A DNA stretch of 64,000 nt. Source: Ascidia mentula. Lineage: Eukaryota; Chordata; Ascidiacea; Phlebobranchia; Ascidiidae. Of the stretch, positions 865 to 62,500 are shown piece by piece (position 1 is the stretch's first letter; every line of letters begins with the position of its first letter). A model generated the notes under the pieces. The model saw only the letters and a program-made list of their open reading frames with translations, was not told where the DNA came from and made no database searches. A program made the position numbers and the translations under genes. The stretch spans positions 16,554,001 to 16,618,000 of the forward strand of contig OX387203.1 in NCBI GenBank assembly GCA_947561715.1, read 5' to 3'.

Positions 865-3800
865 GAAAGGGCGAAATTAACTAAATTTGACAGTTGTCCG
901 CCTGTGATTTCAACATTTTTATATCAAGCGACTTGAAATTTTGCACACAAATATTAGAAGCCACTACACAACGAGCAATGAAAACTAAATTGGCGCCGAA
1001 AACGCATGTTTGAAACTATGGTGTCTAAGGTTCGGCGGTTTTAACTAAATTTGACAGTTGTCAGACTGTGATTTCAACATTTTTCTGTCAAGCGACCTGA
1101 AGTTTTGCACACAAATATTAGATGCCACTACAAAACGAGCAATGAAAACCAAATTGGACAATGTCTTTTAGTTTCTTATTGCTGCGCGAAAACGCATGTT
1201 ACAAACAATGGTCGAGCGGAATTAACTAAATTTGAGAATTCCCGCTGGCAATATACACAATTTTAAATCAAGAGACCTGAAATTTCGCACACAAATACTA
1301 GATGCCACTACAAAACGAGAAATGAAAACTAAATTGGCGTCTGTCCTTTAGAATTTTATTGCTTGCCGAAAACGCATGTTTGAAACTATGGTGGCTAATG
1401 TTCGGCGGATTAACTAAATTTGACAGTTGTCAGCCTGTGATTTCAACATTTTTATATCAAGTGACTTGAATTTTTGCTCACAAATATTAGATGCCACTAC
1501 AAAACGAGAAATGAAAACTAAATTGGCGTCTGTCCTTTAGAATTTTATTGCTTGCCGAAAACGCATGTTTGAAACTATGGTGGCTAATGTTCGGCGGATT
1601 AACTAAATTTGACAGTTGTCAGACTGTGATTTTAACATTTTTCCGTCAAGCGACCTGAAGTTTTGCACACAAATATTAGATGCCACTACAAAACGAGCAA
1701 TGAAAACCAAATTGGACAATGTCTTTTAGTTTCTTATTGCTGCGCGAAAACGCATGTTACAAACAATGGTCGAGCGGAATTAACTAAATTTGAGAATTCC
1801 CGCTGGCAATATACACAATTTTAAATCAAGAGACCTGAAATTTCGCACACAAATACTAGATGCCACTACAAAACGAGAAATGAAAACTAAATTGGCGTCT
1901 GTCCTTCAGAATTTTATTGCTTGCCGAAAACGCATGTTTGAAACTATGGTGGCTAATGTTCGGCGGATTAACTAAATTTGACAGTTGTCAGCCTGTGATT
2001 TCAACATTTTTATATCAAGCGACTTGAATTTTTGCTCACAAATATTAGATGCCACTACAAAACGAGAAATGAAAACGAAATTGACGTATGTCCTTTAGAA
2101 TTTTATTGCTTGCCGAAAACGCATGTTTGAAACTATGGTGGCTAAGGTTCGGCGGTTTTAACTAAATTTGACAGTTGTCCGCCTGTGATTTCAACATTTT
2201 TCTGTCAAGCGACTTAAGTTTTGCACACAAATATTAGATGCCAGCACAAAATGAGAAATTAAAACTAAATTGGCGTCTGTCCTTCAGAATTTTATTGCTG
2301 CGCGAAAACGCATGTTCGAAACGATTGTGGCTAGGGTTCGGCGGTTTTAACCAAATTTGACAGTTGTCCGCCTGTGATTTCAACATTTTTACATCAAGCG
2401 ACTTGAAATTGTGTACACAAATATTAGATGCCACTACAAAACGAGCAATGAAAACTAAATTGGCGTCTGTCCTTTAGAATTTTATTGCTTGCCGAAAACG
2501 CATGTTTCAAACTATGGTGGCTAAGGTTCGGCGGTTTTAACTAAATTTGACAGTTGTCCGCCTGTGATTTCAACATTTTTTATCAAGCGACTTGAAATTT
2601 TGCACACAAATATTAGATGCCACTACAAAACGAGCAATGAAAACCAAATTGACGTATGTCCTTTAGTTTCTTATTGCTGCGCGAAAACGCATGTTACAAA
2701 CAATGGTCGCTAAGGTCGTGCGGAATTAACTAATTTTTAGAATTCCCTCTGGCAATATAAACAATTTCCAATCAAGCGACCTGAAATTTTGCACACAAAT
2801 GCTAGGTGCCTCTACAAAACGAGAAATGAAAACTAAATTGGCGTCTGTCCTTTAGAATTTTATTGCTTGCCGAAAACGCATGTTTGAAACTATGGTGGCC
2901 AAGATTCGGCGGATCAACTAAATTTGACAGTTGTCCGCCTGTGATTTCAACATTTTTATATGAAGCAACTTGAATTTTTGCTCACAAATATTAGATGCCA
3001 CAACAAAACGAGCAATGATAACCAAATTGACGTATGTCCTTTAGTTTCTTATTGCTGCGCGAAAACGCATGTTACAAACAATGGTCGCTAAAGTCGTTCG
3101 GAATTAACTAATTTTGAGAATTCCCGCCGGCAATACAAACAATTTTCAATCAAGCGACCTGAAATTTTGCACACAAATTCTAGGTGCCAATACAAAACGA
3201 TCAATGAAAACTAAATTGGACAATGTCCTTTAGTTTCTTATTGCTGCGCGAAAACGCATGTTACAAACAATGGTCGCTAAGGTCGTGCGGAATTAACTAA
3301 TTTTGAGAATTCCCGCCGGCAATATAAACAATTTTCAATCAAGCGACCTGAAATTTTGCACACAAATACTAGGTGCCTCTACAAAACGAGAAATGAAAAC
3401 TAAATTGGCGTCTGTCCTTTAGAATTTTATTGCTTGCCGAAAACGCAAGTTTGAAACTATGGTGGCCAAGGTTCAGCGGATTAACTAAATTTGACAGTTG
3501 TCCGCCTGTGATTTCAACATTTTTATATCAAGCGACTTGAATTTTTGCTCACAAATATTAGATGCCACTACAAAACGAGCAATGAAAACCAAATTGACGT
3601 ATGTGCTTTAGTTTCTTATTGCTGCCCGAAAACGCGTGTTACAAACAATGGTCGCTAAAGTCGTGCGGAATTAACTAATTTTGAGAATTCCCGCCGGCAA
3701 TACAAACAATTTTCAATCAAGCGACCTGAAATTTTGCACACAAATACTAGGTGCCTCTACAAAACGAGAAATGAAAACTAAATTGGCGTCTGTCCTTTAG

Positions 3801-27700: not shown

Positions 27701-30700
27701 AAGTCTATCCGAGGAACGAAAATATGTTCCAACATCAAAAATTATGTTCTCCGAAACGAAAATTAAGTTCGGGCAAAAAAAATTCAGTTCCTGAAACGAA
27801 AATTCCGTTCCCGTAACGAAAATTCCGTTCCAGTAACGAAAATTCTGTTCCAGTAACGAAAATTCTGTTCCAGTAACGAAAATTCTGTTCCCGTAACTAA
27901 AATTCTCCACCAGTAACGAAAATTCTATTCCAGTTACGAAAATTCCGTTCCCGTAACGAAAATTCCGTTCCCGTCACGAAATTCCGTTCCTCTAACAAAA
28001 ATTTTGTTCCAGCATCAAGAAGTCACTTTTTTGAACGACATTTAGGTCGCGTATCAACAATTTTCTTGAAAGAACGACAATTGTGTCCATGGATCGAAAA
28101 AGTACCTTCGACGGAAATGTAATTAATAACTCATAGTACGATAATTATGTTCCAAAAACGAAATTTCTGTTCCAGTAACAAAAATTCTGTTCCAGTAACG
28201 AAAATTCTGTCCCAGTAACGAAAATTCTGTCCCAGTAACGAAAATTCCGTTCCCGTAACGAAAATTCTGTTCCAGTAACGAAATTTCGTTCCCGTAACTA
28301 AAATTCTGTTCCAGTGACGAAAATTCTGTTCCGGTAACGAAAATTCCGTTCCCGTAACGAAAATTTCGTTCCCGCAACGAAATTCCGTTCCTGTAACGAA
28401 AATTCTGTTCCAAGATCAAAAAGTCACTTTTTTGAACGACATTTAGGTCGCTTATCAACAATTTTCTTGAAAGAACGACAATTGTGTCCATGGATCGAAA
28501 AAGTACCTTCGACGGAAATGTAATTATTCATCATAGTACGATAATTATGTTCCAAAAACGAAATTTCTGTTCCAGTAACAAAAATTCTGTTCCAGTAACG
28601 AAAATTCTGTTCCCGTAACGAAAATACCGTTCCGTAACCAAAATTCCGTTTCCGTAACGAAAATTCCGTTCCCGTAACGAAAATTCCGTTCACGTAACGA
28701 AAATTCTGTTCACGTAACGAAAATTCTGTTCCAGTAACGAAAATTCTTTTCCCGTAACGAAAATTCTGTTCAAGTAACGAAAATTCCGTTCCCGTAACTA
28801 AAATTCTGTTCCAGTAACGAAAATTCCGTTCCCGTAACGAAAATTCCGTTCCCGTAACGAAAATTCTGTTCCAGTAACTAAAATTCCGTTCCAGTAAATA
28901 AAATTCTGCTCCAGTAACGAAAATTCTTTTCCAGTAACGAAAATTCCGTTCCCGTAACGAAAATTCCGTTCCCGTAACGAAATTCCGTTCCTCTAACAAA
29001 AATTGTATTCCAGCATCAAGAAGTCACTTTTTTGAACGACATTTAGGTCGCGTATCAACAATTTTCTTGAAAGAACGACAATTGTGTCCATGGATCGAAA
29101 AAGTACCTTCGACGGAAATGTAATTAATACCTCATAGTACGATAATTATGTTCCAAAAACGAAATTTCTGTTCCAGTAACAAAAATTCTGTTCCAGTAAC
29201 GAAAATTCTGTTCCAGTAACCAAAATTCTGTCCCAGTAACGAAAATTCCGTTCCCGTAACGAAAATTCTGTTCCAGTAACGAAATTCCGTTCCCGTAACT
29301 AAAATTCTGTTCCAGTGACGAAAATTCTGTTCCGGTAACGAAAATTCCGTTCCCGTAACGAAAATTTCGTTCCCGCAACGAAATTCCGTTCCTGTAACGA
29401 AAATTCTGTTCCAAGATCAAAAAGTCACTTTTTTGAACGACATTTAGGTCGCTTATCAACAATTTTCTTGAAAGAACGACAATTGTGTCCATGGATCGAA
29501 AAAGTACCTTCGACGGAAATGTAATTATTCATCATAGTACGATAATTATGTTCCAAAAACGAAATTTCTGTTCCAGTAACAAAAATTCTGTTCCAGTAAC
29601 GAAAATTCTGTTCCCGTAACGAAAATACCGTTCCGTAACCAAAATTCCGTTCCCGTAACGAAAATTCCGTTCCCGTAACGAAAATTCCGTTCACGTAACG
29701 AAAATTCTGTTCCAGTAACGAAAATTCTGTTCCAGTAACGAAAATTCTTTTCCCGTAACGAAAATTCTGTTCAAGTAACGAAAATTCCGTTCCCGTAACT
29801 AAAATTCTGTTCCAGTAACGAAAATTCCGTTCCCGTAACGAAAATTCCGTTCCCGTAACGAAAATTCTGTTCCAGTAACTAAAATTCCGTTCCAGTAACG
29901 AAAATTCTGCTCCAGTAACGAAAATTCTGTTCCAGTAACGAAAATTCCGTTCCCGTAACGAAAATTCCGTTCACGTAACGAAAATTCTGTTCACGTAACG
30001 AAAATTCTGTTCCAGTAACGAAAATTCTTTTCCCGTAACGAAAATTCTGTTCAAGTAACGAAAATTCCGTTCCCGTAACTAAAATTCTGTTCCAGTAACG
30101 AAAATTCCGTTCCCGTAACGAAAATTCCGTTCCCGTAACGAAAATTCTGTTCCAGTAACTAAAATTCCGTTCCAGTAAATAAAATTCTGCTCCAGTAACG
30201 AAAATTCTTTTCCAGTAACGAAAATTCCGTTCCCGTAACGAAAATTCCGTTCCCGTAACGAAATTCCGTTCCTCTAACAAAAATTGTATTCCAGCATCAA
30301 GAAGTCACTTTTTTGAACGACATTTAGGTCGCGTATCAACAATTTTCTTGAAAGAACGACAATTGTGTCCATGGATCGAAAAAGTACCTTCGACGGAAAT
30401 GTAATTAATACCTCATAGTACGATAATTATGTTCCAAAAACGAAATTTCTGTTCCAGTAACAAAAATTCTGTTCCAGTAACGAAAATTCTGTTCCAGTAA
30501 CCAAAATTCTGTCCCAGTAACGAAAATTCCGTTCCCGTAACGAAAATTCTGTTCCAGTAACGAAATTCCGTTCCCGTAACTAAAATTCTGTTCCAGTGAC
30601 GAAAATTCTGTTCCGGTAACGAAAATTCCGTTCCCGTAACGAAAATTTCGTTCCCGCAACGAAATTCCGTTCCTGTAACGAAAATTCTGTTCCAAGATCA

Positions 30701-32178
30701 AAAAGTCACTTTTTTGAACGACATTTAGGTCGCTTATCAACAATTTTCTTGAAAGAACGACAATTGTGTCCATGGATCGAAAAAGTACCTTCGACGGAAA
30801 TGTAATTATTCATCATAGTACGATAATTATGTTCCAAAAACGAAATTTCTGTTCCAGTAACAAAAATTCTGTTCCAGTAACGAAAATTCTGTTCCCGTAA
30901 CGAAAATACCGTTCCGTAACCAAAATTCCGTTCCCGTAACGAAAATTCCGTTCCCGTAACGAAAATTCCGTTCACGTAACGAAAATTCTGTTCCAGTAAC
31001 GAAAATTCTGTTCCAGTAACGAAAATTCTTTTCCCGTAACGAAAATTCTGTTCAAGTAACGAAAATTCCGTTCCCGTAACTAAAATTCTGTTCCAGTAAC
31101 GAAAATTCCGTTCCCGTAACGAAAATTCCGTTCCCGTAACGAAAATTCTGTTCCAGTAACTAAAATTCCGTTCCAGTAACTAAAATTCTGCTCCAGTAAC
31201 GAAAATTCTGTTCCAGTAACGAAAATTCCGTTCCCGTAACGAAAATTCCGTTCCCGTAACAAAAATTCTGTTCCAGTAACGAAAATTCCGTTCCAGGATC
31301 AAAAAGACACATTTTTGAACGACATTTAGGTCGCGTAACAACAATTTTCTTGAAAGAACGACATTGTGTCCTTGGATCGAAAAGGTACCTTCAACGGGAA
31401 TGTAATTATTCCTCATAGTACGATAATTCTGTTCCAGAAACGAAATTTCTTTTCCAGTAACGAAAATTCCGTTCCCGTAACGAAAATTCCGTTACCGAAA
31501 CGAAAATTCCATTACCGTAACGAAAATTCCGTTCCCGTAACGAAAATTCCGTTACCGAAACGAAAATTCCATTACCGTAACGAAAATTCCATTCCCGTAA
31601 TGAAAATTCTGTTCCAGTAACGAAATTTCTGTTCCAGTAACGAAAATTCCGTTCCCGTAAGGAAAACTCCGTTCCCGTAACGAAAATTCCGTTCCCGTAA
31701 CGAAAATTCTGTTCCAGTAACGAAAATTCTGTTCCCGTAACGAAAATTCCGTTCCAGTAACGAAAATTCTGTTCCAGTAACAAAAATTCCGTTCCGAGAA
31801 TAAAAATTCGGTTCCAGGAACGCAAGTTCTGTTCCGGGAACGAAAATTATGTTCCATGCATATTTTCATCTTCCCGTAAGTGTCTACGTTTGAAAACATA
31901 TATTCGTATTAAAATCAACCTTATACTCGTGAGCAAAACCACGTTTTCTTCGTCTCTTTGTCGACATGTAGTGGTGATTTTTGGCTTGGTCGATTTTCGG
32001 AACACAATTTTTTGTGCGATATTACCCAAATTGTGATTTTGGAAACACAATTCAAAAACCAAAATATGTTCCTGTAACGAAATTTTGCGTAAAAATAATG
32101 TTCCCGAAACGGTTTTTCTCATTTGGGAACGAAATTCCGTTTCTCGGAACGGTTTTGTAACGAAATTTCGGAACAAAG
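27700..32178. repeat. 20-bp minisatellite with nested higher-order repeat
   Basis: The unit is GTAACGAAAATTCCGTTCCC and close variants (CCGTTCCC, CTGTTCCA), three units per 60 bases. It is quasi-palindromic: AACG, an A/T centre, then CGTT. Blocks of units alternate with a ~140-bp linker seen near 28018, 28419, 29018, 29421, 30300, 30701 and, diverged, 31298. The linker contains TTGAACGACATTTAGGTCGC and a GTACCTTCGACGGAAATG word. Two linker subtypes (CGCGTATC and CGCTTATC) alternate, so the real period is two linkers plus two blocks. The first period is 1000 bp and the second 1281 bp; the extra 281 bases correspond to about fourteen more 20-bp units. Both edges decay into degenerate units. Most of the minus strand reads open because the unit has no stop in any minus frame; I do not treat this as coding. 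Confidence 0.93.
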
Positions 32179-37046: not shown

Positions 37047-37315
37047 CTGGACAAAAAACAGGTAGTCGTAAATAAAAGGATTTGCAAAAAAATCCATGCA
37101 GCAAAACTGCATCAAAATCAAGTTTTCCTGGCGACCCCAACTTGCAATAGTACGTGAAATATGTACATGATTAAGGCACTTCAATTTATAACTACCGTTT
37201 ATTGCTTATACAGCTAAAATATTAGGAAAAAAGGGACAACACAACACGACCAAGTCCATAAATTTTCGATTCGTTGGGAAGTTGCCATGACAACAGGGAT
37301 TACCACAAAACTCAC

Positions 37316-40300
37316 CGAAGGGGGATTTCAGGAAATCGCCTGAATTTTCCTGACACATTTTGCTCATCTCCTTCACGTATATTTCCATCCCCATCACCGT
37401 GTTCTGGTGATTGTTCGGATGAACATAAGCCAGTTGGGCGACCTCGAAGAACAGAATTGCTTCCAAAAACTTTTTCTCGTTCCTTCGTCGATTCGCGGCG
37501 CCCTTTAACAAGGGAGCTTTCGCATTCAAGTTGGAGATGATGAATTCTAACACTTTTCCAGCTGTTTCTCTAGCGTGATTGTACTGATGCGCCTCCAGCA
37601 TTTGTTTGTAGGTTTGTATTAACTCCCGACCTTGAAAACATGTTCTTTGCTGAGGGGAAACGTTAAGATTTCTGATTCACAAAATCATAAAAATCAACTT
37701 GAAATTCACTAAATATTTGAGAAACGAAGTTTCAATTATTTCCAAAATCTGTAAATCTGTTTGGTGTAAAGCCAAGTTTTTGTAGTTAGTCCTGACAAAT
37801 ACACGAATCAACATAAAATCGTACCTTCTCCTTGTTCGAACATCTGATCGAAATTAAGAATGTTGGGTTTTGAAGACGACAAGTTGGACGAGGCTGGGGA
37901 TTAACACAGAATAAATATTTTGTGCGTGAAAGTTGTTGGTTTTTGTGTTCGTGACTGTTTTAGGGAAAGCAATAAACGTAATATACTGCATGTAACTTGT
38001 GGTTACACCAGCACCGTTGTTCTGTATATTACAATTCAATGTTGTTATTTCACTCTCTAGTTAGGGTTCGGGTCAGTTTCATAAACTAGTCCTTTGATAC
38101 CGAACCTTTTTGTGGTTGCGTACCACTTGGAGGTAAAACAATTTCGACGCGTACCACCTAGTTGTGTGTTACAGAGTAACCTAGGTGATGAAGTAATAAA
38201 CATTTTGAGATCAGAATTTTTGAATTCGAACTGATCCGCACCATCTGGAATGCCGTCGCGTACCACCGGTTGGGAAACACTGACTTAGTCAGTGGCATTG
38301 CTTACACGAGACCAAGTAACGGCGGTTATTATCGCGCAAAAATTATGCCAGGATAAGAGCATAATTTTCGTGCAAGTTATATCCGCCGTTTAAAGTTTAT
38401 GCCGGGCCGCTGTAGTCATCGAAAGCCCGACAGGCCGATATTTCAAACATTGTTTAAATTTCATGCATTGCCTTGATATTCTTACTTTGGGCAGAAGGCG
38501 GAGAAGTTGGAAATGTGGATTTCTGTTGAGTTGAAGGCTCTGAAAGCAACAATGACATGCAAAATTACGATGTATTTACGCAGTAAGCAAGAGCTATGGT
38601 TTGCAGAATTGTCAAACACTTGTGTACCTGAAAAGCACAAGTCTTCGTTTCCATAATTAGATGGAGGTCGGTCAACATTCTGTTGTACAGGAACTAAAAC
38701 ACAGTAAAAATTATGTGTCGGTTGATCATCATGCGTTCGAGTAATTTAATGAAGTGCCCAAATACATTCTTCACCTGGCAACAAAACACTGCATTCCAAA
38801 TGACGTACGCTTTTATATTTGAATAAGAGACAAGACTGAACTTAGTAAAACATTTCCTTACAGGGTCAAACTCATGTAGAGGGGAAGTATTGTGTTCTGT
38901 AAATGTTGGTGTGGAAAATTGCATTTTCTTCTGAATTTGAGATACTTGCAATGTGATCGCAGAAATATCTTGCAACATGGAAAGTTCCCCAAGCTTTTTA
39001 CTAAAGAAATGCGTGCATGCGTACTTCAGGAATAATTTTGGGCTTGAAAAGTTAATCAAGCTTTTTTCTATAAAATATTTTTCACTGTTTAAAAAACATT
39101 TTCTTGAAAGGTAATTGGTAAAAACATACTTCGAACATATACATATTTAATATAAACAAATACAAAACACTTCTTTTCAAAATATTCCACACACACTTAC
39201 TAATTTGACAGAAAATGGCAAAATGGTTTTATCTAAAATCAAATTGTCTTTTAGAAAAAAAGTCTGACAAAAAATTATGTGTGTACCTGACAGAGGACAT
39301 ATTGGCCCGCGTTGTAGGATTGTGTTGCCAACATCCCTGTATTACTGCTGATAATAGATCAACCATTTCATTTTCCTCAGGTGTTGTATCTTCTTTTATC
39401 TCAGAAACACTTATTGAAGGGCGTTGGCCACCCACGATTGCATCAATGTAAACATCAAGTGGTGTGGAACCCATTGGGTATTTTTGGAAGAGTATAAAAT
39501 ACACAACCATGGCAAAACTGAAAACATCATCTTCTTTATTGATGGTTGCCAACGGGTTGGAAAGTAATTTTGGAGATGCAAAGGCTTTTGTGTACTCCGT
39601 ATGCTTTCTGCTGGAACTCATTGGTGTTGTTGTACTGACACAAGTGATTGTTGACAACTTGGCACTTCCAAAATCACCAACTTTGCAGATTAAATGTGCG
39701 GTGATAAAGACATTTTCTGGCTTAATATCACCATGAGTCATCCTTTTTTCCCTGGGATATTGTGGATGAAAGCCAGAGCTTTGGAAATATCAAAACTCAT
39801 CCGAAGTTGCAACCCTGGCTTAAGCTCAACATGAGAATTAAGAAGCAGGGTACCAAGGTTACCACCTGCCATGTATTCCATTACAAGGGCCATGGTATTT
39901 GGCCAATCCGTCCATCCATACAAACGTACAATGTTGTCATGGTTGGCATTATCAAGCATTTTAATTTCATCAGAAATTCTACAAAAATTATTTTGAACGT
40001 CAACTTTTTGCCAAAACACATAAAATCACAGTTAACACCAATTCATCTGAAAAATAAACCAAATTTCCTTTAAAAGTTGCCCAAATAAATGCCGCATCAA
40101 ATAAATTTTATTTTTTCTTTGGCTCTGTCACTTTATGCCACACAAGCATTACAAACCTGTTTTTAATGTTTATCCTTTCTTTTTTCCCACCTTGAACCCC
40201 AAAGCATTTAAGTGCAACTTTTCCAAAATTTTGAATGTCACCTAGCAACACAGTGCCAACCAAACCTGAACCAAGTTCTCCATCATCTGTGTTAAGACAG

Positions 40301-40332
40301 CGGATTTCTGTCACAGTTCTTGATTCCTTCAT
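37316..40332 (-). CDS. TKL/RIPK-like non-RD protein kinase, split gene
   Basis: I read seven exons on the minus strand: 40332-40157, 39978-39287, 39000-38862, 38679-38628, 38539-38486, 37893-37825 and 37630-37316 (strong donor GTGAGT after the last). Phases agree at every junction. The ATG at 40332 lies just after an acceptor (TTTTTTGCAG), implying a 5' leader intron. The kinase domain starts at once: glycine loop LGSGLVGTVLLG, VAxK lysine in KVALKCFG, helix-C Glu in SDEIKML, catalytic loop MTHGDIKPENVF (HGD, so non-RD), metal-binding GDFGSAKL, and DVFSFAMV for helix F; the APE Glu is Lys (ASPKLL). A Ser/Thr/Pro/Gln linker follows, then a helical C-terminal part (FEQGEGRELIQTYKQ, KKFLEAILFFEVAQLAYVH) resembling helical hairpins. 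One base is missing in a homopolymer (T6 on the plus strand, 39744-39749) between the kinase lobes. No transmembrane segment is seen. TKL assignment is fairly sure; the subfamily is not. Confidence 0.8.
38057..38283 (-). mobile_element. hAT-like DNA transposon fragment in an intron
   Basis: Read on the minus strand from 38,283 the sequence begins CAGTGTTTCCCAACCGGTGG, followed by TACGCG. This is the typical form of a hAT-family terminal repeat and subterminal motif. A second GTACCAC/GTACGCA-type motif lies further in (near 38,120). I do not find a matching terminal repeat at the other end, so the copy looks truncated. It sits in the intron between the exons at 38,486 and 37,893 of the kinase gene. 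No transposase is present. Confidence 0.55.
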
Positions 40333-40343
40333 TGTGAAAACTG

Positions 40344-42081
40344 CAAAAAAGAAATGTAATCACAAACTCAACAAACATTATAGGCAAAGAAAACTCCAAG
40401 CAATAGGACATCAATAAATAGAAAATATAATGTTACCTTGATCTAGTCTAGTGTACAATCATAAATACTATTATAACCTCAAATAAACCTATTGATCTTA
40501 ATCGGTTTTCAATAAGGCAAGGTTACAATTCATCAATAAAAACCAACATGAATATATAACAAAAAATACTTGAAAGTAAAGCAGATAATGTTCCAGAAAT
40601 GTGAAACACAAAAACAAACCTTCTGAAAGGCAGAAGCAGAATCAACAGTTGTTAGACCAGGAGCAAAAGCAACAGCTTTAACAATGCATTACATGTAATT
40701 GATTTTTTGTTCCTTCATTACAACTTTAACAAACCACAAACAAGTTCCTCTCCCAGCATTTGCAAAACATGTGGGCTAAAGACAGACCGGTAACACCGTT
40801 TTCTCCAGTACATGGCGCTATTTTACTCCAGTAAATACGTTACCGGTCTGCCGTTAGCTCCAAGAAAAAGCAATTAGTTTGTTTAATTGCGTTACACATG
40901 ATCAACTACAATGCTTTTCTCAACTCGTGCCGTATTTTCAGCATGCCTTTTTCATCACACACACACCCAGCTACACATTGTGGTGTTAAACTTCAGTGTT
41001 CATTTTAATCACAAACAGCAGTTCAATCAAAAAGTTGCTTTTTCAGCGTTTCGTTTACTAAATGTTTTATTGGTTCTGGTCAAGAGGTGACTGGAAATAT
41101 TGTCAAAAAGTTGTTGGCAGAAACGCCAACATGTTGCAACAGTGCCAGCGGTGGGATTATTTTTTTTAACATCCGCAAGGACCCTGGACCGATACATCAG
41201 GATTCATTATACACGTGGTTATTTGGGACTTCTACTGAAAGAAGTGATACACAGCCCTACGATACACGCTTGCTAACAACCGGTTCGCGGAGGTCATTAA
41301 AACCACTACTGAACAGCCAGCGCCCAGAACATAAGCGTGTTGCCAGGTGCTGCAAACATTATCAAAATTCACGCTCGACTAAAACGTAAAAACTGCCTCA
41401 GTAGGCGTGCTTATGACGAAGTTCCTTTGACCGCTTTGTTAACCAATCTACCAAAAACCTGTAGAAAAAAACAGCTTTATAACCGGAGATGAAAAGATTT
41501 GTGGATATAGCCAATATTTATTGTGTGGATTTGTCAGGCCCCACGAAAGAAAGTGTGTAATAATTGCGGTGAGCCAGGGGCCATTACCACTCTAGATAAA
41601 AATATGTGGGAATGAACTCCATTGTTTCCCTTCAAACTCAAGAATTGCGACTTGTAATTTCATGTCATCTCCAAAAAAAGGTTCTCGCCACGACATTAGG
41701 ACCCGGGAATCAAAAAATGTCAGCGAGGAATATTTTTAACGGCCTTAGAAGCCTTTTCACATTTGAGGATTATGAATATTCTTGAACGTAGTTGTGCATA
41801 CTTGCCTACGGTTAGGTGTGTTTGGTTCAATATATTTATTGTTGGTTAAGACTCAGAGGTAAATTAGGATATTGTCGAAAAGCTCATTGGTTTAAACACC
41901 GACCTTTTACAATAGCCGTTACCCTCATTTGAACATGAACTAAAAGAATCAAACCTTACCTTGTAGCAAGACAACATTTGGTAATGTTGTTTTATTCTTC
42001 GTATATCTGCATAAATATTACTTGCTTTTGAAGGTGTTTTGCTTAATTCATACAATGGGACAAACCAACGAAAGTTGCAGC
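40344..42081. promoter_or_regulatory. Divergent intergenic region between two kinase genes
   Basis: About 1.7 kb separates the first coding exons of the minus-strand kinase and the plus-strand kinase-KEN gene, so they are arranged head to head and may share control sequences. Inside it, CAGACCGGTAAC (40,783-40,794) is repeated inverted as GTTACCGGTCTG (40,839-40,850) around a 44-bp loop that holds two CTCCAGTA words. An open frame at 41,087-41,389 has no recognisable domain and no clear splice sites; I do not call it a gene. No core promoter element can be assigned with confidence. Confidence 0.4.
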
Positions 42082-45000
42082 ATGTCGAAGTATAGTTTTG
42101 ACAAAGGTGGTGTAATAGCCGAAAACGATGGCGTACAAGTCCGCATGTAAGTTGCAAATGTTGCTTAAAAAATTGTCGGATATATTTATCATCAGTATTT
42201 AATACTACACGGAAAAATAGAGTGATATGATGCAAGATTTAAATGTATCGCTTATATTTACAGGATAGATTTTTCGTAAAATTTTTGATTGTTTCAGATG
42301 TCGGAGAAAAGAAGATAATCACATTTTTGCTGCAAAAATTGTCGGCCCGGGATATTACGGAGAGAGGGAAAATGAAAGGGAGATTCTTGACAAAATCGAC
42401 TGCGAAAATGTGATCAGATTTTACGATTACTTTCAGGTGCATTTAGAAACTTATTTTAACTGAGAAAAAATCAGTGAATGTCAGTGTATTTTTGTTGTTA
42501 GGGAAATGAATACAATTACTCCTTTCTGGATCTCTGCAGCGGATATGCTTCTCAAGTACTTTTGTATACCGTTAATTTGTGTATTGTATATTAAGCATCA
42601 CTTTGACAGCTTTACCTTATATTGTTTATCCTTGTGCAACTTTGATGATCCAAAATAACATAAACATGTTACAACACGTCATTAACAACGTTTAATTTCG
42701 CCACCGCAGAGCTGAAGGAAATATCAATATAAAAAAATAAACAAAAATTCTAAAATCACTTAAAAGAAAGTAGCATAGGAGCGTTCGTTTGTGGTAACTA
42801 TATATTAAAATTGACGACTTAAAGTGAATTTTACTTGTAGTGTTTTTCCAATACAGTGGGGTTGGATACTAAACAGTGAATCCCCTAAATGAAAAATATT
42901 AGTGCTTGTGTCTTTTTGTTGGTAGGAAAAACAATTCAGCTGCTTTATCATGGAACTCTGCAGCGGAGATGTTTCTCAAGTATTTCTACATATCGTTAAT
43001 TTCTGTATTGTATATTAAAGTGCATATGACACGGCCATGACAACTTTGCGTAAAACTAAAGGTACATCTACAACAAACATATATCCAAAGTTTCACGGTT
43101 CTACGTCAACTAAAAAATGTATAAAACTGCACGAAAAGTAACGGCGACCAAAAATCGTAAACCTTGTGCGCTAAGGAGAAAATGACATCACATAAGGCAC
43201 TCGCGTCGAAAAAATGCATTGTTTAGATAGGAGAAGGCGCCTTTTTCTGCAGATATCGAATAGTTTCAAACATGGGAGAATCCACAGATTACGTTACCGT
43301 GAAGGTCAGGACAGGGTTTTGCATCACACAAAAATTTGTCATTGTGACGTCACGAATCAAAGGCTTATTTGTCTCTAATTAGCGGAAGACCACAGGGTAT
43401 AGCAGAAACGACATAACTGTGAGTGGACAAAACGACAATGCTAAACTAACGGATTGTCTCTGTCGTGTTTTCAAAAGTTCATGTATCACGTTAGCGATCA
43501 TAAATGCTGTAACAACAAGAACACCCTGTCCCAGTAACTGTTTTATTATTACACAACTAAATAGGACATAATAGGTCGAACAGCGGCCATCTGTCTTCAG
43601 CTTAAATTAACATCAAAATCCGTTTATTTCACTTGTTTCCTTTTTGTCCCCTGTTTAATGCAATATTATGCTTAAACCGGTTTTACAATATTTTCCATTC
43701 CTACGCATAAGGGTTGCTGCCAGCACTCGCGCACGACCGAAGCGCCTTCTATGACGTCACGCAACAATATCTCGCTTTCGCACGATTTCGTTCGCAGCGG
43801 CAAAAGTGCGACTTTGATCAGCTGTATCTCAGAAACCAGTCGTCGTATCAAGCTACTTTTTTTGCCAAAAATGTTCTAAAGTTATGAACATCTCTTAGTT
43901 TGATTATTAACATGTTTTATTTTTCCGTGTCATATGCACTTTTAAGCTGTAGTCGTTTTTATTTTTTCATGAAAACTTGTTGACATAAAAATAAATTATA
44001 ATTTTGCTGTTGTTTTCATGGTTTTTATGTCTTTTCAGTGGGTTGCCAACATGAAGGGTGATTCTAGTAATCCAATTGATCCCGAAACGGGAATGAATTT
44101 AAAGATAAGTTTCTTGAACTATTTTGATATTGGACCACTCGACGTATTGCGTCAGTCCGTTACTGGTGTAAAGTATTTACATGAAACTGGCATAGGTTTG
44201 TACACAGTCGGCCACGCAGACGATTTCTCAGCTTATTTGCTTGTTTTATGTTCAGTTCACGGCGAAATTAAACCTGAAAATTTTCTTCTCAAGAAAAAAA
44301 ACGATGGAAAAGTTGTCGAAAAAGTAACTGACTTTGATTTCAGTAGACAGAATTCCAGTTTGATGGTAAGTAGAACATATTTTGCAAAGAACACGTAAAC
44401 TGTATCACATTGTTTTTCAGATAGGAAGCCAGCAGGATATACTTTCTCTCGGTGAATACATTTACTACGTTCTTACTCTTGGAGGATCCATGTTTCAAAG
44501 GGAAACAAGACAACCAATCAATTTTCAAAGCAGAAAAGCGCCAGAATTCCATGGTTTGGAACACTCTGCATTGCTGACGAGGGAACAAAAAGTAACTACC
44601 CGTGACCTGCTGAAAAGAATAGTTGCCGATGAACCTAGATGCCGGCCAAACATTCATATTGTGGAAATTCATACAACATTTTGGGAAGACAAACGAAAAG
44701 TGGAATTTTTTGAGGTCAGTTCTGTCTTTGTATGAATTCGTTTTAAGCATTCGTTAAAAGGGGTAACAGATTAACCTAATAAATAAAATTTGATTTTAAA
44801 TATGTCGTTGGAAAATACATTGGGCGACTGTAGTTACATATAGTAGAAGGTTTAGACGGCTACATATAACAGGATACAAAAAAGCGCACATTACAATTTG
44901 GATAAAAACAAGTTATTTTGTCATGATAATGAATATCAAATCATCATAAATTTCAAGACAAATTGACAAGTAAAAAGGAGACCGGTAAAACCCGACAGGT

Positions 45001-46554
45001 TACCGTTAATGTAAAGCTAATTTGCTTCAGGAAAATCACGCCTTGTCGTGAAAGGTGGTGGCGAAAGGTGATGCGCTGCATGGCACCTTACGTGGCCACT
45101 CGGTTGTTCAATGTATGTTGCAGTAGGTAGCGTTTAGTTTAGGCATAGAGTTCCTTGGTGAACTTCAATCCTTTTCACATAAGTAGTTTACGTGGCAACC
45201 GATAGAGTATAGAATACTTTTGGTTTAAGGCGGTTGCAACGTACCACTAAACAAGTCATACTCTTTTCATTAATTATGCCCGGTCCTGGAACAAGGCAGG
45301 GAACGTTAACTTCTAAATTCCTTTCCACATAAGCAGTTTACGTGGCAACCGATAAAGTATAGAATAGAATGTCCCACCCTGGTCCTTACGGTGGACCGAG
45401 ACAGGCAAATCGTGCACTTGTCAAGCGACATAGCAGTAGACTAGAGTGACCGACTGCAACGCAGGCAGTAAAGAGAAGAGGAAACAATTTACGCTGTCAC
45501 ATGAACTAGCATTTAACCGTTCATATGGGAAATAGGATTTACTTTATAATTTAGCTTGGTAATTATAAGATGGTTGCAGTTGCTTAACCCAATGGTTTTT
45601 AACAGAGGATTTGTGTAGTGTTGTCAAAAGGTCCGCAACAACCTCTAAATACTTACGCCATATGGTTGATAAACCCATATTTTGGAAATGATTGCTCATT
45701 TCATAATATGCCCGAAAACATGCAAAGTTACAGAAGCAAGTTGCAGCCTTGATTTATCGCAAACAAAAGCGCATCGTGACGTAAAAATTATACTTAAATT
45801 TCAGCACGAGCAAAATAAAAAAAAAACGCATAGGGTTCGCGACCACTCTGACGTCATCAAAAGGGGATCTGAAGAATGAGAACTACTGGCTAAACCCATG
45901 TGTTTTTGTTTCTGGCAGGACATAATACGTGTTTTGGAAATTGACGACTACATTGACAGAGAAAAGTTCAACATGTTCAATGAAGCTTATTTGTCTGATT
46001 CACAATATAGTGCCAAAAAAGAGTACAAAAAGTTTAACTTAACTGGCGCCACCCCAAGGTTTAATCGTCACGATTGCAATGGAATTCAACACATTATTCG
46101 CGAGATGAGAAACAAGGTAATTTGTTTTTATCAACATAAAATCCATTTAACAGAGAGCAAATCAAATGAAATGCAATTGTGTTTGCACAAAAAATAACAA
46201 CGCCGATGAACAATTACAAAAAATAAGTTTCCCCTTGTCCATTACACACTACAACGTACCTGACGACGTGTTACGTAGTAAATATTTTGGACAATACCAA
46301 CACATAATGATTGAAGCTTAATGTTTTTATGTGAATTGTCACATGTCCTAATGTTAATTTACAATGTCAGGCGACCCATGCCGCTGGGCTGCCAAAAAGA
46401 GGAAATGACTTACTTCGGTTTAACACCAGGACGAGAAAACTGGAACAAGTTTTTGGGGCGATTTCTGGCCAACTTTCCGCACTTGCTCATTCACTGCTAC
46501 GAGTTCTTCCGTGAAGACAGTAAACTGCCTAACAGAAAAAAATATTACGCATAG
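42082..46554 (+). CDS. RNase L/IRE1-like pseudokinase-KEN endoribonuclease
   Basis: Exons: 42082-42146, 42298-42436, then one of two alternatives (42502-42555 or 42926-42979), 44039-44195, 44256-44365, 44421-44714, 45919-46116, and a last exon ending at stop 46552-46554. Phases fit up to 46116. The product is ~390 residues: a kinase domain from about residue 4, then a KEN domain. Visible parts: HIFAAKIV (beta3 Lys), ENEREILDKI (helix C), ENVIRFYDYF, catalytic loop IVHGEIKPENFLL (HRD becomes HGE), VTDFDFSRQ (DFG becomes DFD), no APE segment, QQDILSLGEYIYYVLTLGG (helix F), TFWEDKRKVEFFEDIIRVLE (kinase-KEN junction, like IRE1 FFW..LQFFQDVSDRIE), GIQHIIREMRNK and FLANFPHLLIHCYEF (KEN). DFD plus a short activation segment recalls vertebrate RNase L. 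No signal peptide, membrane segment or ankyrin repeats were found. Expected role: regulated RNA cleavage in the cytoplasm, with the pseudokinase as nucleotide or dimer switch. Activity is unproven. Confidence 0.82.
42502..42555 (+). other. Alternative exon 3a (beta5/hinge segment)
   Basis: The acceptor is TTTTTGTTGTTAG and the donor GTACTTTTG. It is 54 nt, phase 0 at both ends, and reads GNEYNYSFLDLCSGYASQ. It corresponds to the beta5 strand and hinge of the kinase (IRE1 IAIELCAATLQ). It has the same length and phase as exon 3b, with which it shares LCSG and the final SQ. The intron just after it also matches the intron after 3b until the MITE insertion point. Confidence 0.75.
42926..42979 (+). 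other. Alternative exon 3b (beta5/hinge segment)
   Basis: The acceptor is TCTTTTTGTTGGTAG and the donor GTATTTCTA. It is 54 nt, phase 0 at both ends, and reads EKQFSCFIMELCSGDVSQ. FIMELCSG is closer than 3a to the usual hinge of the family. Using both copies together would insert a second beta5/hinge and disrupt the fold, so the pair is best read as mutually exclusive. Confidence 0.75.
43015..43945. mobile_element. TTAA-flanked MITE in intron of the kinase-KEN gene
   Basis: The ends are perfect inverted repeats: AGTGCATATGACACGG at 43,019-43,034 and its complement at 43,925-43,940. TTAA lies on both outer sides (43,015-43,018 and 43,942-43,945). The ~920-bp body has no coding capacity that I can see. 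The paralogous intron after exon 3a reads TGTATTGTATATTAAGC, which equals the left flank joined to the right flank, i.e. an unfilled site. TTAA target use points to piggyBac-like mobilisation. A short block at 43,567-43,596 resembles the end of the MITE at 47,881, suggesting a nested fragment. Confidence 0.8.
45109..45580. repeat. Dispersed repeat in the large intron before the KEN exon
   Basis: This copy contains the block CAGTTTACGTGGCAACCGAT or a one-base variant twice (around 45,187 and 45,335), about 148 bp apart. The same block appears inverted at ~47,055 and ~58,675. The word GTAGGTAGCGTTTAGTTTAG near 45,125 is inverted at ~58,875, and the AGCTTGGTAATTATAAGAT region (~45,553) recurs at ~47,521. 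A family of short interspersed elements is therefore present in at least three places. No terminal repeats or coding sequence are evident; class unknown. Confidence 0.6.
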
Positions 46555-51865: not shown

Positions 51866-52065
51866 NNNNNNNNNNNNNNNNNNNNNNNNNNNNNNNNNNN
51901 NNNNNNNNNNNNNNNNNNNNNNNNNNNNNNNNNNNNNNNNNNNNNNNNNNNNNNNNNNNNNNNNNNNNNNNNNNNNNNNNNNNNNNNNNNNNNNNNNNNN
52001 NNNNNNNNNNNNNNNNNNNNNNNNNNNNNNNNNNNNNNNNNNNNNNNNNNNNNNNNNNNNNNNNN
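51866..52065. other. Assembly gap (200 N)
   Basis: The gap is a run of exactly 200 unknown bases, probably a placeholder of arbitrary size. It hides the junction between the EGF-membrane gene and the left arm of the large inverted repeat, so the true end of that arm is unknown. Confidence 0.99.
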
Positions 52066-55010
52066 TACTAATTCAACTTGTTGCAATAAATCCCTCTGAT
52101 GTAGTTGCTAACAATGTGAGCCAACTATAATACTGTGCAACAATTAACTTGCAAGTAATGCCACTAGGTGCGCCACTCCCACGCTTAGTTGCTATGACAA
52201 CGGTATACACCAGCATCTTAAATTTTTCCACAAATCTAAAAAGTGATTACGCATCCCCATCGAACTATAAACATGACATAAACATCACAATATTGTTACC
52301 ACATCATTCCGCTTACGTCATTGGTTTGTGTTTGCCCAAACAATTGCGAACTTGCATTATCTCTAGACAAGATAACCTGTTGTATACGTATACGGTTCAT
52401 GTTATCGAGAAATGCAAGGTCAAACAGTTACGACTTACGTTATAAATAAACGCCAAACCTTAGAAATTGCTAATTAAGATTACATTGTGATCTACAAATG
52501 TTAATCGACAATTTCTTAAAAGTAATACAACCCAATTAATTTGTATCCTAGTTACTTAGACCTCGCACTAATTTTGAACATGTTGCTTTAGCTGCACCTC
52601 GATAACTACTTTTCCCGGGCAAATGAATGCGGACAAACTGCTGCAAGACCCCGGCTTTATACAAAAACTGCATTACCACTAAACACGTAGCAGGTATCTT
52701 CCCAACCACATGATGTCAAGTTGTTTCTACTTTTAGCAATCGCGACACGCAGTACCAAGCACCTACTTTATCTTCTAATTTAGTTTCCCACCGAACAACC
52801 TGAGATTAATCTTGTACCAGGTACTGAATGACTTCATAAATATGTGAATAAAAATGAGGTAATTTTAACGCGTCTCTATGACCAGAATATTTAATGTTTC
52901 AAACTTTCTATGATTTGAGCAGACATTGCAGCAGTGGTGATGCGTAAAGATTTTACTTGCGAGAGTAATTTTACACCAAATAATCGCGCAACATGATTAT
53001 GTTTCACGGAAAATGTCGAAAAGCCAAACCGCTTAGGCAAAAACGATTCTCTGGCTATTTAAGAACGCCACAAATGTTTCGCAATGGAATTTATGTGTGA
53101 AAGTTGCCCGAATGCTGTAATGCCGAATTTGCCGCGCGTGTCAGACAAAATGACGTAAGGATCTGCATTGAAGCCTGGGGGCAAAATGTTGAACTTTTCG
53201 GTTCTGATCGTTTTAATATTTCGCTCAGATTGAATTTTTAGGCAAGTTATTGACAAAAATTTCTTCACTTCTCCCATAATTAACTCATCGTTACTTAATT
53301 TAATAGTGCGGCCACGTTCCGATCTGCTAAACATTTATTACTTAACTGTTCGATCTCCCGTTGAAAAACAACAAATATTCCCAATTTTTTCAAAAAAGAC
53401 GATAGACTGAAAGATTAAATATGGATTTTGTTGTTAGAGTGTTTTTTGCGATGAGCTTGTTATCATTGAAGTTACTCAATATTTATTGTATCGTTGTGAA
53501 GTGTGGTTTTATTTGCACTCATCAATCGCTACTTTATTTTGTATTATTTGTTTTCCACTTCTTGCGTTAGATGAAATGCCAATTTCCCTGCGAATTGTGA
53601 TTTAACTCATTATAAATGTACAGTTATCAGAAAAAATGAATTGAAACGGTTTTTATGACGTCACAAACGTTACAACACATTTCTTCCACAGGCGCGTTGT
53701 TGTTCTCACTTGTAACACATGGAATTATCCGACCCATTCGAAATATCAAACCTATTCAACTCTTTTTGTTCAGGGTTGAACCTTTACTGCTTTTATAAAT
53801 AGGAGTTTCAAATGTAATTCCAAAATTTCTTCGCCTTTAAATAAATATTATTTGCGTTCAATCTTCGCAAAATACGATCCCCGAGGTTTCGTTAAAGACG
53901 CGTTTGTAATTTTCAAATGCAGGTTTTCGCGGCAATAGATAATTTTAGTAATCGCGATACGCACCGCCAAGCACCTACTTCAGCTTCTAATTTCGTCCCA
54001 GACCAAAGAACTCATGTACCGCAGACACTGCATGACTTCATCATAACACTGCAATCACAAGTATGCAGTAAACACGGTAAGGAGACTTGAACATGCGTGC
54101 AAGGCCCAGTAATGTTTAATACCAACGACTTTCAGGTGGTTATATATAGACAATTACAAAGCAGATCACTAACAATGGAGTGTTTGTTCATCGTATGCAT
54201 GTACTTACATTTATTACGGGACCAAACATCACAGAGTAACTCATGTTTATAGATTGTCTATGAATGTGCATTCACCGCAGCGGAGGGGATGACGCGCAAC
54301 GTTTCGCTTGTGGCTTACGTCTGTATTTACTCAACTTTGATAGATTGCATCACAAATAATATAAAAAGCTATGCTATTTTTTTTTAAATATTATTGTTTT
54401 GCGAAAGAAAAAATCCCCATGGAAACATAAATTGTTGCTGAACAACAAAAGGGGTTTTATAATATCTTTGTTATTGTTTCGTGAAAATTGTCACAAGACC
54501 AAACCGTTAAAGCATGAACAATTACTTGGCTTTATTTTTGACCTAAGACAAAAAGCTTGATAATTACAACGTCACAAACGATTCGCATTTGCCCGAATGC
54601 AGCAAACAAATTTGCAGGCGCGAAGCAGACAAAATGACGTAATAATCTGCACTGAAGCCTGGGGCAGAATGTTGTTCGTTACTGATCTTGAAAAATTTTG
54701 ACAAAATCTTCGTGACGTCACACACTTCACTAGACCCCACGTTTCTGTAGTGTCGACATCATATTTGCAATTATTATGTTGTGATTTTCTGGCAACAACG
54801 ATCGGATAAAACTCACGCTGCAAACCCACATTAACTAATTTGCGGCGAACGTGCTATTCGATCGTATGTATGGAAGATAATTAAATATTTGGTCGACCTA
54901 GTTTACGACACAGCCGCTCTTTGAAATGAGTCACGGGGTAATCCTAACTCAAATGCATTATGCATAAGCCTGTATACATTTTTTGTATAAGCCACATATC
55001 TTTTGCGTAA
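52066..55010 (+). repeat. Left arm of ~3-kb inverted repeat (dispersed repeat copy B)
   Basis: This segment is the reverse complement of 59,580-62,607 along its whole length. Matched points include AACTTGTTGCAATAAATCCC (52,073 with 62,607), ATGCCACTAGGTGCGCCACT (52,158 with 62,523), the GAAGCCTGGG word (~53,169 with ~61,502), and GGAAGATAATTAAATATT (54,872 with 59,700). The arms are clearly diverged, with small insertions, so this is not an assembly duplicate. The part from 53,100 also matches copy A at 32.2 kb and that similarity runs on to about 56,650, beyond the arm. No gene is recognised inside. Confidence 0.85.
52980..53440 (+). repeat. Internal direct repeat M1 of the dispersed element
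   Basis: M1 shares order and sequence with M2 (54,460-55,300): a GTTTCACGGAAAATGTC/GTTTCGTGAAAATTGTC start, GCCAAACCG/ACCAAACCG, TTGCCCGAATGC, CAGACAAAATGACGTAA, TGAAGCCTGGG, TTCCGATC and ATATGGATTTTGTT. The spacing of ~1.5 kb and the direct orientation would suit an old element bounded by long direct repeats, but no coding part, primer-binding site or target duplication was recognised, so the class stays open. Confidence 0.55.
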
Positions 55011-59579: not shown

Positions 59580-62500
59580 GTGGATATGTGGCTGATACCA
59601 AAAATGCATCCAGAGGTATTTTAGTTCGGATAACCTCGTGACTCACTGGAAACGCAGATTGTGTCATAAAATAGGTCGACCGAATATTTAATTATCTTCC
59701 GTGCAATAAGTTAATGTGGGTTTGCAGCGTGATTGGTATGTGACTTTAATAAAAAAAAAACAGTTGTTGCCAGAAAAACACAACATAATAATTGCAAATA
59801 TGATGTTAACACTACAGAAACGTGGGGTCAGGGACCACTAATTGAAATGTGTGACGTCACGAAGGTTTTGTTAAAACATTTTTTCAAGATCAGTAACGAA
59901 CAACATTCTGCCCCAGGCATCAGTGCAGATTCTTTTGTCATTTGTCTGACTCAAACATGTTTGTTGCATTCGGGCAAATTTGAAACGTGAACTCCAACGC
60001 CAATCGTTTGTAACGTTGTAATCATGCTTTTTGTTTTTGTTTAAAACTAAAGCCATGTAATCTTTCACACTTTCACACTTTAACGGTTTGTTCTTTAGAC
60101 AAATTCTACGAAACAATGCCATACATAACGTTGTCGTGAAACACCTTTTTGCTATTCAGTCACAATTTACGCTTCCGCTGGAATTTTATTCTACGCAAAA
60201 AATATAATATTTTTTTATTTCTTTCCTAGCTTTTTATATTATTTATGGTGCAATCGATCAAAGTGGAGTAAATATATACGTAAGCCACAAGCGAAACGTT
60301 GCGCGTCATCTCCTCCGCTGCGGTGAATAAACATTCATAGACCATCCATAAACCTCAGTTACTCTGTGACGTTTGGTCCAGAAATAAATGTAAGTACATG
60401 CATACGATGAACAAACTCTCCATTGTTAGTGATCTGCTTTGTAATTGTCTATATATAACCACCTGAAAGTCGTTGGTATTAAACATTACTGGGCCTTGCA
60501 CGCATGTTCAAGTCTCCTTACCGTGTTTACTGCATACTTGTGATTGCAGTGTTATGATGAAGTCATGCAGTGTCTGGTACATGAGTTCTTTGGTCTGGGA
60601 CGAAATTAGAAGCTGAAGTAGGTGCTTGGCGGTGCGTGTCGCGATTACTAAAATTATCTACTGCCGCAAAAACCTGCATTTGAAAATTACAAACGCGTCT
60701 TTAACGAAACCTCTGGGATCCTATTTTGCGAAGATTGAACGCAAATAATATTTATTTAAACGCGAAGAAATTTTGGAATTACATTTGTTAACACCTATTT
60801 ATAAAAGTCGTAAAGTTCAAACCTGAACAATAATAGTTGAATAGGTTTAATATTCCGAATGGCTCCGATAATTCCTTGTGTTACAAGTGAGAACAACAAC
60901 GCGCTGTGGAAGAAATGTGTTGTAACGTTTGTGACGTCATAAGAACCGTTTTGATTCATTTTTTTATTCACTAATAACAGCACATTTATAATGAATTAAA
61001 TCAAAATTCGCTTGTTTTATTAGGAAGGCATAAGATGTCACCGAATATTATTGTTCTACATCCGATGTGATATTACATTTAAAAGGGAAATTGGCATTTC
61101 ATCTAACGCAAGAAGTGGAAAACAAATAATACAAAATAAAGTAGCGATTGATGAGTGCAAATAAAACCACACATCACAACGATACAATAAATATTGGGTA
61201 ACTTCAATGATAACAAGCTTATCGCGAAAAACACTCTAACAACAAAATCCATATTTATTCTTTCAGTCTATCGTCTTTTTGAAAAACAGTGTATATTTGT
61301 TGCGTTTCAACGACAGAACGAACTGTCAAACAATAACTGGTTAGCCGGTCGGACGTGGCCGCACTATTAAATTAAGTAACGTTGAGTTAAGTATGGGAGA
61401 AGTGAAGAAACTTTTTGTCAATAACTTGCCTAAAAACTTCGATCTGAGCGAAATATTAATACGATCAGAACCGAAAAGTTCAACATTTTGCCCCCAGGCT
61501 TCAATGCAGATATTTACGTCATTTTGTCTGACACGCGCAGGCAATTTCGGTCTTGCTGCATTCGGGCAACTTTCACACGTAAATTTCAATGCGAAACATT
61601 TGTCCCGTTGTTAAATAGCCAGAGAATCGTTTTTGCCTAAGCGGTTTGGCTTTTCCACATTTTCTGTAAATCACTATCATCCATGTTGCGCGACTATTTG
61701 GAGTAAAATTACTCTTGCAAGAAAAACGTTTGCGCATCACCACTGCTGCAATGTCTGCTCTTATCATAGAAAGTTTGAAACATTAAATATTCTGTCATAG
61801 ATGCGCGTTGAAATTACCTCATTTTTATTCACATATTTATGAAGTCATTCAGTACCTGGTACAAGATTAATCTCAGGTTGTTGGGTGGGAGACAAAATTA
61901 GAATATAAAGTAGGTGCTTGGTTCTGCGTGTCGCGATTTCTAAAAGTAGAAACAACTTCACATCATGTGGTTGGGAAGATACCTGCTACGTGTTTAGTGG
62001 TAATGCAGTTTTTCTATAAAGCCGGGGTCTTGCAGCAGTTTGTCCGCATTCAGTTTACCGGGAAAAGTAGGTATCGAGAGGCAGCTGAGCAAAGTGTTAA
62101 AAATTATTGCAAGGTCTAAGCAACTAGGATTCAAATTAATTGGGTCGTATTACTTTTAAAAAATTGTCGAATAACATTGGTAGATCACAAAGTAATCTTA
62201 ATTAGCAACTTCTTAGGTTTGGCGTTTATCTATAACGTAAGTCGTAACTGTTTGACGTTGCATTTCTCGATAACACGAAGCGTATACGTCTAATGTACAA
62301 CAGGTTATCTTGCGCTAGATATAATGCAAGTTTACAATTGTTTGGCCAAACACAAACCAACGACGTAAGCGGAATGATGTGGTAACAATAGTGTGATGTT
62401 TATGTCATGTTTATAGTTCGATTGGGAGCGTAATCGCTTTTTAGATTTGTGGAAAAATTAAAGATGCTGGTGTATACCGTTGTCATAGCAACTAAGCGTG

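Follow-up and report, generated by a model that had tools for sequence, protein, structure and literature searches.

KEN RNases are wired to the lumen of the endoplasmic reticulum in IRE1 and to 2′,5′-oligoadenylate (2-5A) in RNase L, and in both enzymes the kinase fold dimerises back to back, thereby activating the RNase. The present analysis concerns a kinase-KEN gene of the tunicate Ascidia mentula, which lies on the forward strand at 42,055-46,554 of a 64,000-nucleotide stretch, here called the window (assembly GCA_947561715.1, contig OX387203.1; C71:16,554,001-16,618,000), together with its relatives in the genome (195.8 Mb in 79 contigs searched; contigs and loci carry C and L numbers). 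The mitochondrial COX1 has glycine at conserved glycine positions only when AGR is translated as Gly, as in the ascidian code, which fits a tunicate. This gene is probably a recently duplicated and decaying member of a tunicate kinase-KEN expansion that is devoid of a membrane part and stems from an IRE1-like gene.

Among the described systems, IRE1 (ERN1) shares with the window gene the order of kinase and KEN, five introns in its tunicate version and the best match by sequence among solved structures; it differs in that no luminal or membrane part was found for the window gene, which carries HGE and DFD instead of HRD and DFG, has lost the activation segment and belongs to a clade of its own within a family of 25 loci. 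RNase L resembles the window gene in its DFD, its non-HRD catalytic loop (HQD/DFD in 4oau/4o1o), its short activation segment and a kinase-KEN unit without membrane part, but no ankyrin repeats were found here, a clade of RNase L with the C71 copies was rejected and the DFD is convergent.

Other related arrangements have also been described. According to the accessible text of PMC3710099, the tunicate Oikopleura dioica has a lineage-specific KEN expansion as well, in which KEN stands apart from the kinase, whereas in Ascidia mentula the two are fused and in one branch apparently joined to NACHT. The same text describes animal NACHT fusions of CXorf38- and DZIP3-type HEPN, some with leucine-rich repeats (LRR) or DEATH; like the C1 relatives presented below they join an RNase-fold HEPN to a NACHT ATPase, but they belong to other HEPN families and have no IRE1-type kinase. 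Its row of KEN partners names kinase, ankyrin, CCCH, UBI and BRCT, and NACHT is absent from that row. Arabidopsis IRE1C is an IRE1 relative without sensor domain that groups with plant IRE1, yet it is a plant gene, neither part of a pseudokinase cluster nor linked to nucleotide-binding leucine-rich-repeat receptors (NLRs), as far as the accessible part of PMC6788458 goes. A NACHT-kinase-KEN protein was not found in the literature searched (preprints, subscription papers and the figures and supplement of PMC3710099 lay outside the scope), the sole match being PMC3710099, in whose accessible text NACHT occurs with other HEPN or bacterial proteins. In a preliminary description the window gene had been presented as a third architecture beside IRE1 and RNase L; this holds in so far as no sensor part of either enzyme was found, and is tempered by the sensor-less IRE1C (PMC6788458) and the Oikopleura expansion (PMC3710099), both taken from the accessible texts. 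By the sequences at hand, the more unusual architecture is the NACHT-kinase-KEN arrangement on C1, elsewhere in the genome.

The window gene and its probably decaying cluster

The window gene comprises eight exons with GT-AG ends throughout, which join in frame through exon 7. Its product matches Pkinase (Pfam, 9.3e-24), and the solved structures closest to it by sequence are those of IRE1 (8.7e-21). Exon 1 (42,055-42,146) contains the first in-frame ATG, upstream of the start at 42,082 proposed earlier, either of which may be used, and a degenerate glycine loop, KGGVIAENDGVQVR; its donor is GTAAGT, and its phase 2 is common to the C67, C73 and C1 relatives. The N-lobe follows in exon 2 (42,298-42,436), with the VAIK-type lysine kept (FAAK) and the alpha-C glutamate in NEREIL. 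An 18-codon hinge exon is duplicated, exon 3a (42,502-42,555; GNEYNYSFLDLCSGYASQ) and exon 3b (42,926-42,979; EKQFSCFIMELCSGDVSQ) being equal in length and phase and 77% identical in DNA over 95 nt; 3b is nearer to the relatives, and mutually exclusive use of the two at the ATP-site hinge is possible. Exon 4 (44,039-44,195) covers the middle of the kinase and stops before the catalytic loop, at a boundary between I and VH that is in phase 1 as in IRE1. In exon 5 (44,256-44,365) are found the catalytic loop HGEIKPEN, with HGE replacing HRD, then DFD replacing DFG and a truncated activation segment. This exon measures 110 nt, against 185 nt in the C73 relative L044, and therefore the activation segment is almost gone; from DFD to the DIxxLG helix the window gene is about 25 residues shorter than L044. 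The kinase fold with HGE, DFD and a nearly lost activation segment, as first described, was thus borne out. The C-lobe is encoded by exon 6 (44,421-44,714), with a phase 0 boundary between FFE and D as in IRE1, and the first half of KEN, ending in MRNK, by exon 7 (45,919-46,116).

A genome search with the protein identified a family of 25 loci. C71 carries twelve of them between 16.18 and 16.74 Mb, the window included, and C73 ten between 2.70 and 2.96 Mb; C67 has a single locus at 9.89 Mb and C1 a pair at 10.59 and 10.61 Mb. Additional weak matches occur at C1:1.12-1.14 Mb, and the ordinary IRE1 is a separate locus on C70. When the genome was searched with the KEN family model, IRE1 alone was matched, perhaps because that search proceeds exon by exon. 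Given these many paralogues and the introns common with IRE1, the window gene is real, far beyond chance.

The C71 copies are close to the window gene, with identities to it of 92.7-100% per exon, barring exon 5 of L033 (77.5%) and exon 4 of L035 (86.5%), both marked by deletions, and L041 (77-98%). In the gene models of the present analysis an unbroken full-length frame occurs in none of the twelve, and the sound gene of the preliminary description gives way to a frame-broken copy in a cluster without a whole one. One shift each is carried by L034, L035, L037, L041 (also without an exon 1 match) and the window copy, two shifts by L038, and two shifts plus one stop by L033; exons 5-6 are missing from L036 and L040, the latter with one stop as well, L039 keeps exons 1-4 alone, and L042 and L043 are left with an unbroken remnant that starts at the end of exon 5. 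These last two (C71:16,722,702-16,738,916) are 5′-truncated, lie in opposite orientation and have an identical predicted protein, apparently a palindromic duplication. Variable sites by codon position number 28/348, 18/348 and 17/348, compared with 16/350 in the 25-nt flanks (4 to 11 copies per exon, copies with indels or incomplete matches dropped, exon 8 excluded); there is no third-position excess. The catalytic loop of the seven readable copies is HGE in five and HGK in L033, its H being unplaced in L041, and DFD is found in four (window, L034, L035, L037) and DFG in three (L033, L038, L041).

The break of the window copy lies in exon 8 (46,371-46,554), the second half of KEN, whose acceptor at 46,371 is common to all 11 cluster copies with this exon. 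From this acceptor the window copy reads RNKATHAAGLPK, which keeps the catalytic histidine (RNKATH), and with this paralogue-type splice its frame is broken after ...MRNKATHAAGLPK, that is, out of frame beyond ATHAAGLPK. The same break is carried by L034 and L038, and L037 is broken differently. The exon is open throughout in the remaining 7 of 11 copies, with the reading RNK(A/G)THAA-LPKEEMSYFGLTPGREN-NKFL-RF (dashes denote variable positions), and therefore the KEN motif, defined as Rx4H in the accessible text of PMC3710099, is ancestral in the cluster and still present in the window (Rx4-6H, as RNKATH directly before the break). Against the Pfam cut-off of 23.3 bits, KEN scores 29.7 in L035, 35.5 in the C67 relative and 28.8 in C73. 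Read in this way, the window copy loses its second KEN half, which only splicing at the weak acceptor at 46,402 would retain.

That the window gene works as it is, with exon 8 spliced at 46,402 or with the break being an assembly error or polymorphism, so that a pseudokinase-KEN regulator results whose dead kinase tunes active C73 or C67 partners, appears unlikely. The alternative exon 8 (46,402-46,554; acceptor AAAAAGAG), chosen in the preliminary description, does restore the frame, but the acceptor has no pyrimidine tract, the product skips the catalytic histidine and hence the Rx4-6H motif, and its KEN region reaches 19.3 bits, under the cut-off. Exons 1-7 read cleanly and have good splice sites, the shift being the sole flaw found, exon 1 and the 25-nt flanks are identical in nine copies, the window included, and exon 7 has a mean dN/dS (ratio of non-synonymous to synonymous change) of about 0.6; set against this are the lack of any unbroken full-length copy among the twelve and of a third-position excess of change. 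Of the originally described KEN domain joined to the kinase there remains a KEN-type region with IRE1 as best solved relative, which is not cleanly readable, and the profile search that had been proposed confirmed the kinase and left KEN under the threshold. Decay of the window copy is thus preferred.

Origin of the family

Five intron positions, with their phases, are common to the kinase and KEN parts of the window gene, the C73, C67 and C1 relatives and the animal's own IRE1, and therefore the window gene descends from an IRE1-like gene. The first precedes the hinge strand, in a loop whose length varies, and the second follows that strand, both in phase 0; the third stands ahead of VH(R/G) in phase 1. 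The remaining two, again in phase 0, are found where the activation segment ends and, just ahead of KEN, between FFE and D, for which C67 and C1 have other residues. Not shared is the last KEN intron, which is placed after RNK in phase 0 in the family and between LRAM and R in phase 2 in the own IRE1. By its gene structure the family is derived from IRE1, perhaps from the tunicate's own gene.

For C-lobe and KEN a tree was built from four of the twelve C71 copies, three of the ten C73 copies, the single C67 relative, the C1 pair, the IRE1 of the animal itself and that of human, and partial rows of yeast IRE1 and RNase L as output by HMMER, the window row ending at the frame break; it contains long branches, flagged by the program. 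The C71, C73, C67 and C1 members group together with support of 99/97, and the IRE1s (human, yeast and own) as well as RNase L fall outside this clade. A clade of RNase L with the C71 pseudokinases was rejected (p value of the approximately unbiased test, p-AU, 0.007), and therefore the RNase L-like DFD state of the kinase is convergent. The phylogeny that had been suggested as a check consequently returned a clade of its own for the family, with no grouping of C71 with RNase L, and "RNase L-like" cannot be upheld as a statement of kinship, DFD and DFG both occurring within the cluster.

It is very improbable that the gene is a genuine RNase L of an invertebrate, activated through OAS and 2-5A, and that its ankyrin sensor was lost or separated. 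Its HGE/DFD and short activation segment do resemble the HQD/DFD of RNase L, but HRD and full activation segments are found in the C73, C67 and C1 relatives, the readable C71 copies are split between DFD (4/7) and DFG (3/7), and no ankyrin match was obtained in the three upstream open reading frames (ORFs) scanned. The best tree places RNase L and the whole family together against the IRE1s, with support of 64/69 only, a grouping that is neither established nor rejected; RNase L with C71 is the rejected clade. OAS1_C matches over the cut-off occur at two loci, C70:7,563,894-7,565,138 and C73:264,907-265,590 (best E 6.8e-4), which probably represent an OAS-like or related nucleotidyltransferase, and therefore 2-5A synthesis is possible in this animal.

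Hardly to be entertained, finally, is a plain tunicate IRE1 duplicate with its luminal and membrane part on upstream exons, since the common introns, an in-frame hydrophobic stretch upstream of the ATG and a clade with own IRE1 that is not rejected (p-AU 0.137) are opposed by a divergent kinase gene apparently beginning about 1.7 kb upstream, the lack of an upstream ORF common to the clusters (E < 0.02) or of a Pfam match in the three upstream ORFs scanned, the separate locus and branch of own IRE1, and the NACHT carried instead by the C1 relatives.

Relatives apparently joined to NACHT, other relatives and surroundings

The two C1 relatives (C1:10,586,083-10,591,845 and C1:10,606,170-10,611,904; L055, L056, L059) are near-identical. 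Upstream of their kinase exons lies an exon whose 3′ part matches stretches adjoining known NACHT domains of the genome, such as C70:14,417,033 by the NACHT at C70:14,417,582 and C69:20,102,391 by that at C69:20,101,836; its 5′ part reads GSGKST...LLIIFDACDE...NRVFTSR (Walker A/B), and this exon recurs in the other copy. Sixteen exons run in one frame, free of stops and shifts, both in L056 (from residue 111 on, with L059 supplying residues 1-110) and in the covered part of L055. The assembled protein matches NACHT (6.6e-12) and Pkinase (5e-40, active-looking with HRD, DFG and APE), retains the KEN motif Rx4H as RHKAVH, and shows two LRR-like repeats by eye, with no Pfam LRR match. Judging by the exon phases, NACHT and KEN would be on one transcript. 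Comparison of the copies, with the first exon left out, revealed differences at 51 of 2,009 coding sites (17, 16 and 18 at codon positions 1, 2 and 3) and at 83 of 2,682 sites in introns, which says little about constraint.

The genome is rich in NLRs, with a very large NACHT expansion: 95 of 317 candidates were scored and all 95 were over the cut-off, mainly on C69, C70 and C71; the model also matched 11 of 14 prokaryote controls, in three of them over the cut-off. Many lie at C71 14.2-15.35 Mb, and isolated examples, at 16.01 and 16.11 Mb, lie a short distance outside the cluster of the window gene. Beside the C67, C73 and C71 copies no NACHT was found among the candidates scored (95/317 and 121/267).

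The C73 copies keep HRD and an APE-type activation segment in all ten cases and DFG in nine (DFV in L052). Eight are unbroken, the exceptions being L048, with a stop and without KEN, and L053, with a shift. With these two left out, variability by codon position is 70/295, 64/294 and 81/295, and pairwise dN/dS is 0.28-1.19 (exons 6-7 of seven copies, L044 being dropped too for its different length); therefore, these are fast-evolving genes. The C67 relative, L054, has HRD and a full activation segment. Its upstream ORF (oriented 2,712-3,365) has a weak match to NLRC4_HD2 (0.0024, 18.8 bits, cut-off 33.1), and by eye a 28-nt exon connects it in phase with the kinase. A 28-nt exon was seen by eye ahead of exon 1 in the C73 copies as well.

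Upstream of the window gene, three plus-strand ORFs at about 41.0-42.1 kb (of 29 listed for the window) had no Pfam match and thus no ankyrin; across loci, 10 of 113 listed ORFs were scanned in this way. No upstream ORF was common to the clusters at E < 0.02, and by this comparison and the three scanned ORFs neither a luminal domain nor a membrane helix was found. None of the loci read showed an ankyrin-KEN protein. The kinase-KEN core in an invertebrate, with no recognisable ankyrin, luminal or membrane part, thus stands as initially described, and since no sensor part is recognisable and the family forms its own clade, sensing must differ.

The divergent neighbour (37,209-40,359, minus strand) is a protein kinase gene, MTHGDIKPENVF...VGDFGSAKL (Pkinase 1.2e-14), with the ORF at 40,108-40,359, separate from the piece matched, as first exon by eye and a possible helical C-terminal part. 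Viral relatives were represented by 78 loci kept from the best 80 of 139 relatives, and their matches end at or before query residue 333, in the kinase only and with no KEN; both patterns lie in the kinase, so a kinase-less viral KEN would escape. The window also contains a tandem array of a 20-bp unit at about 28,100-31,900 (unit seen from 30,015 on), which gives rise to long repetitive ORFs, and a large inverted repeat at 52,383-54,371 and 60,227-62,292, with arms 91-97% complementary in five pieces and a 200-N gap just outside it, at 51,866-52,065.

Putative function and meaning

The best reading of these predicted proteins is a tunicate kinase-RNase family with rewired sensing, which in one branch would be tied to NLRs. 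The kinase fold of whole relatives, with HRD kept in C73, C67 and C1, would be a dimerisation platform, and by analogy with RNase L that of the C71 copies would at most bind nucleotide. Dimerisation would activate the KEN RNase (Rx4H), so that RNA would be cut as part of a stress or immune reaction. For the C1 branch, NLR oligomerisation, supplied by NACHT, would be the simplest trigger, and the apparent fusion may point to a new link between immune sensing and RNA cutting. For those C71 copies whose KEN is broken, only a decoy role or no role is left, and a truncated product would serve as no more than a dead partner or decoy, if it has any role. A fuller picture, in which NACHT-LRR-kinase-KEN receptors on C1 oligomerise on a danger signal and gather their own and the stand-alone kinase-KEN units of C67 and C73, the C71 copies being fast-turnover decoys or regulators and an RNase L-type output thus following NLR sensing and not 2-5A, is tentative and at present rather doubtful.

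Several observations weigh against the reading of the window gene as a decaying member of an IRE1-derived family devoid of a membrane part. A clade of the family with own IRE1 is not rejected (p-AU 0.137), although the best tree lacks it. An in-frame hydrophobic stretch without methionine, at about 41,980-42,054, directly precedes the ATG at 42,055 and leaves a small doubt that a 5′ exon could supply a membrane part. The mean dN of exon 7 in C71 is 0.040 and thus below the mean dS of 0.064 (8 of the 11 copies with exon 7), which makes some past constraint possible. The exon 8 break might reflect an error of the assembly or a polymorphism; this is weakened because three copies (window, L034 and L038) with identical exons 7 and 8 carry it 169-391 kb apart. 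KEN of the C1 protein scores 20.8 bits, under the cut-off, and has RHK for RNK. Lastly, the catalytic histidine is replaced by tyrosine (RNKLTY) in seven of nine C73 KEN models (L046, L047, L049-L053; the splice choice is uncertain), with RNKLTH kept in L044 and L045, and therefore much of the family may not cut RNA.

If the proposed origin and rewiring are true, the same kinase-RNase module would be pluggable into a third sensing system, NACHT in one branch, in addition to those of IRE1 and RNase L. The tunicate family would then serve as an outgroup to the vertebrates for the question of how RNase L arose, and the C71 copies indicate that the DFD pseudokinase state of RNase L can arise again independently.

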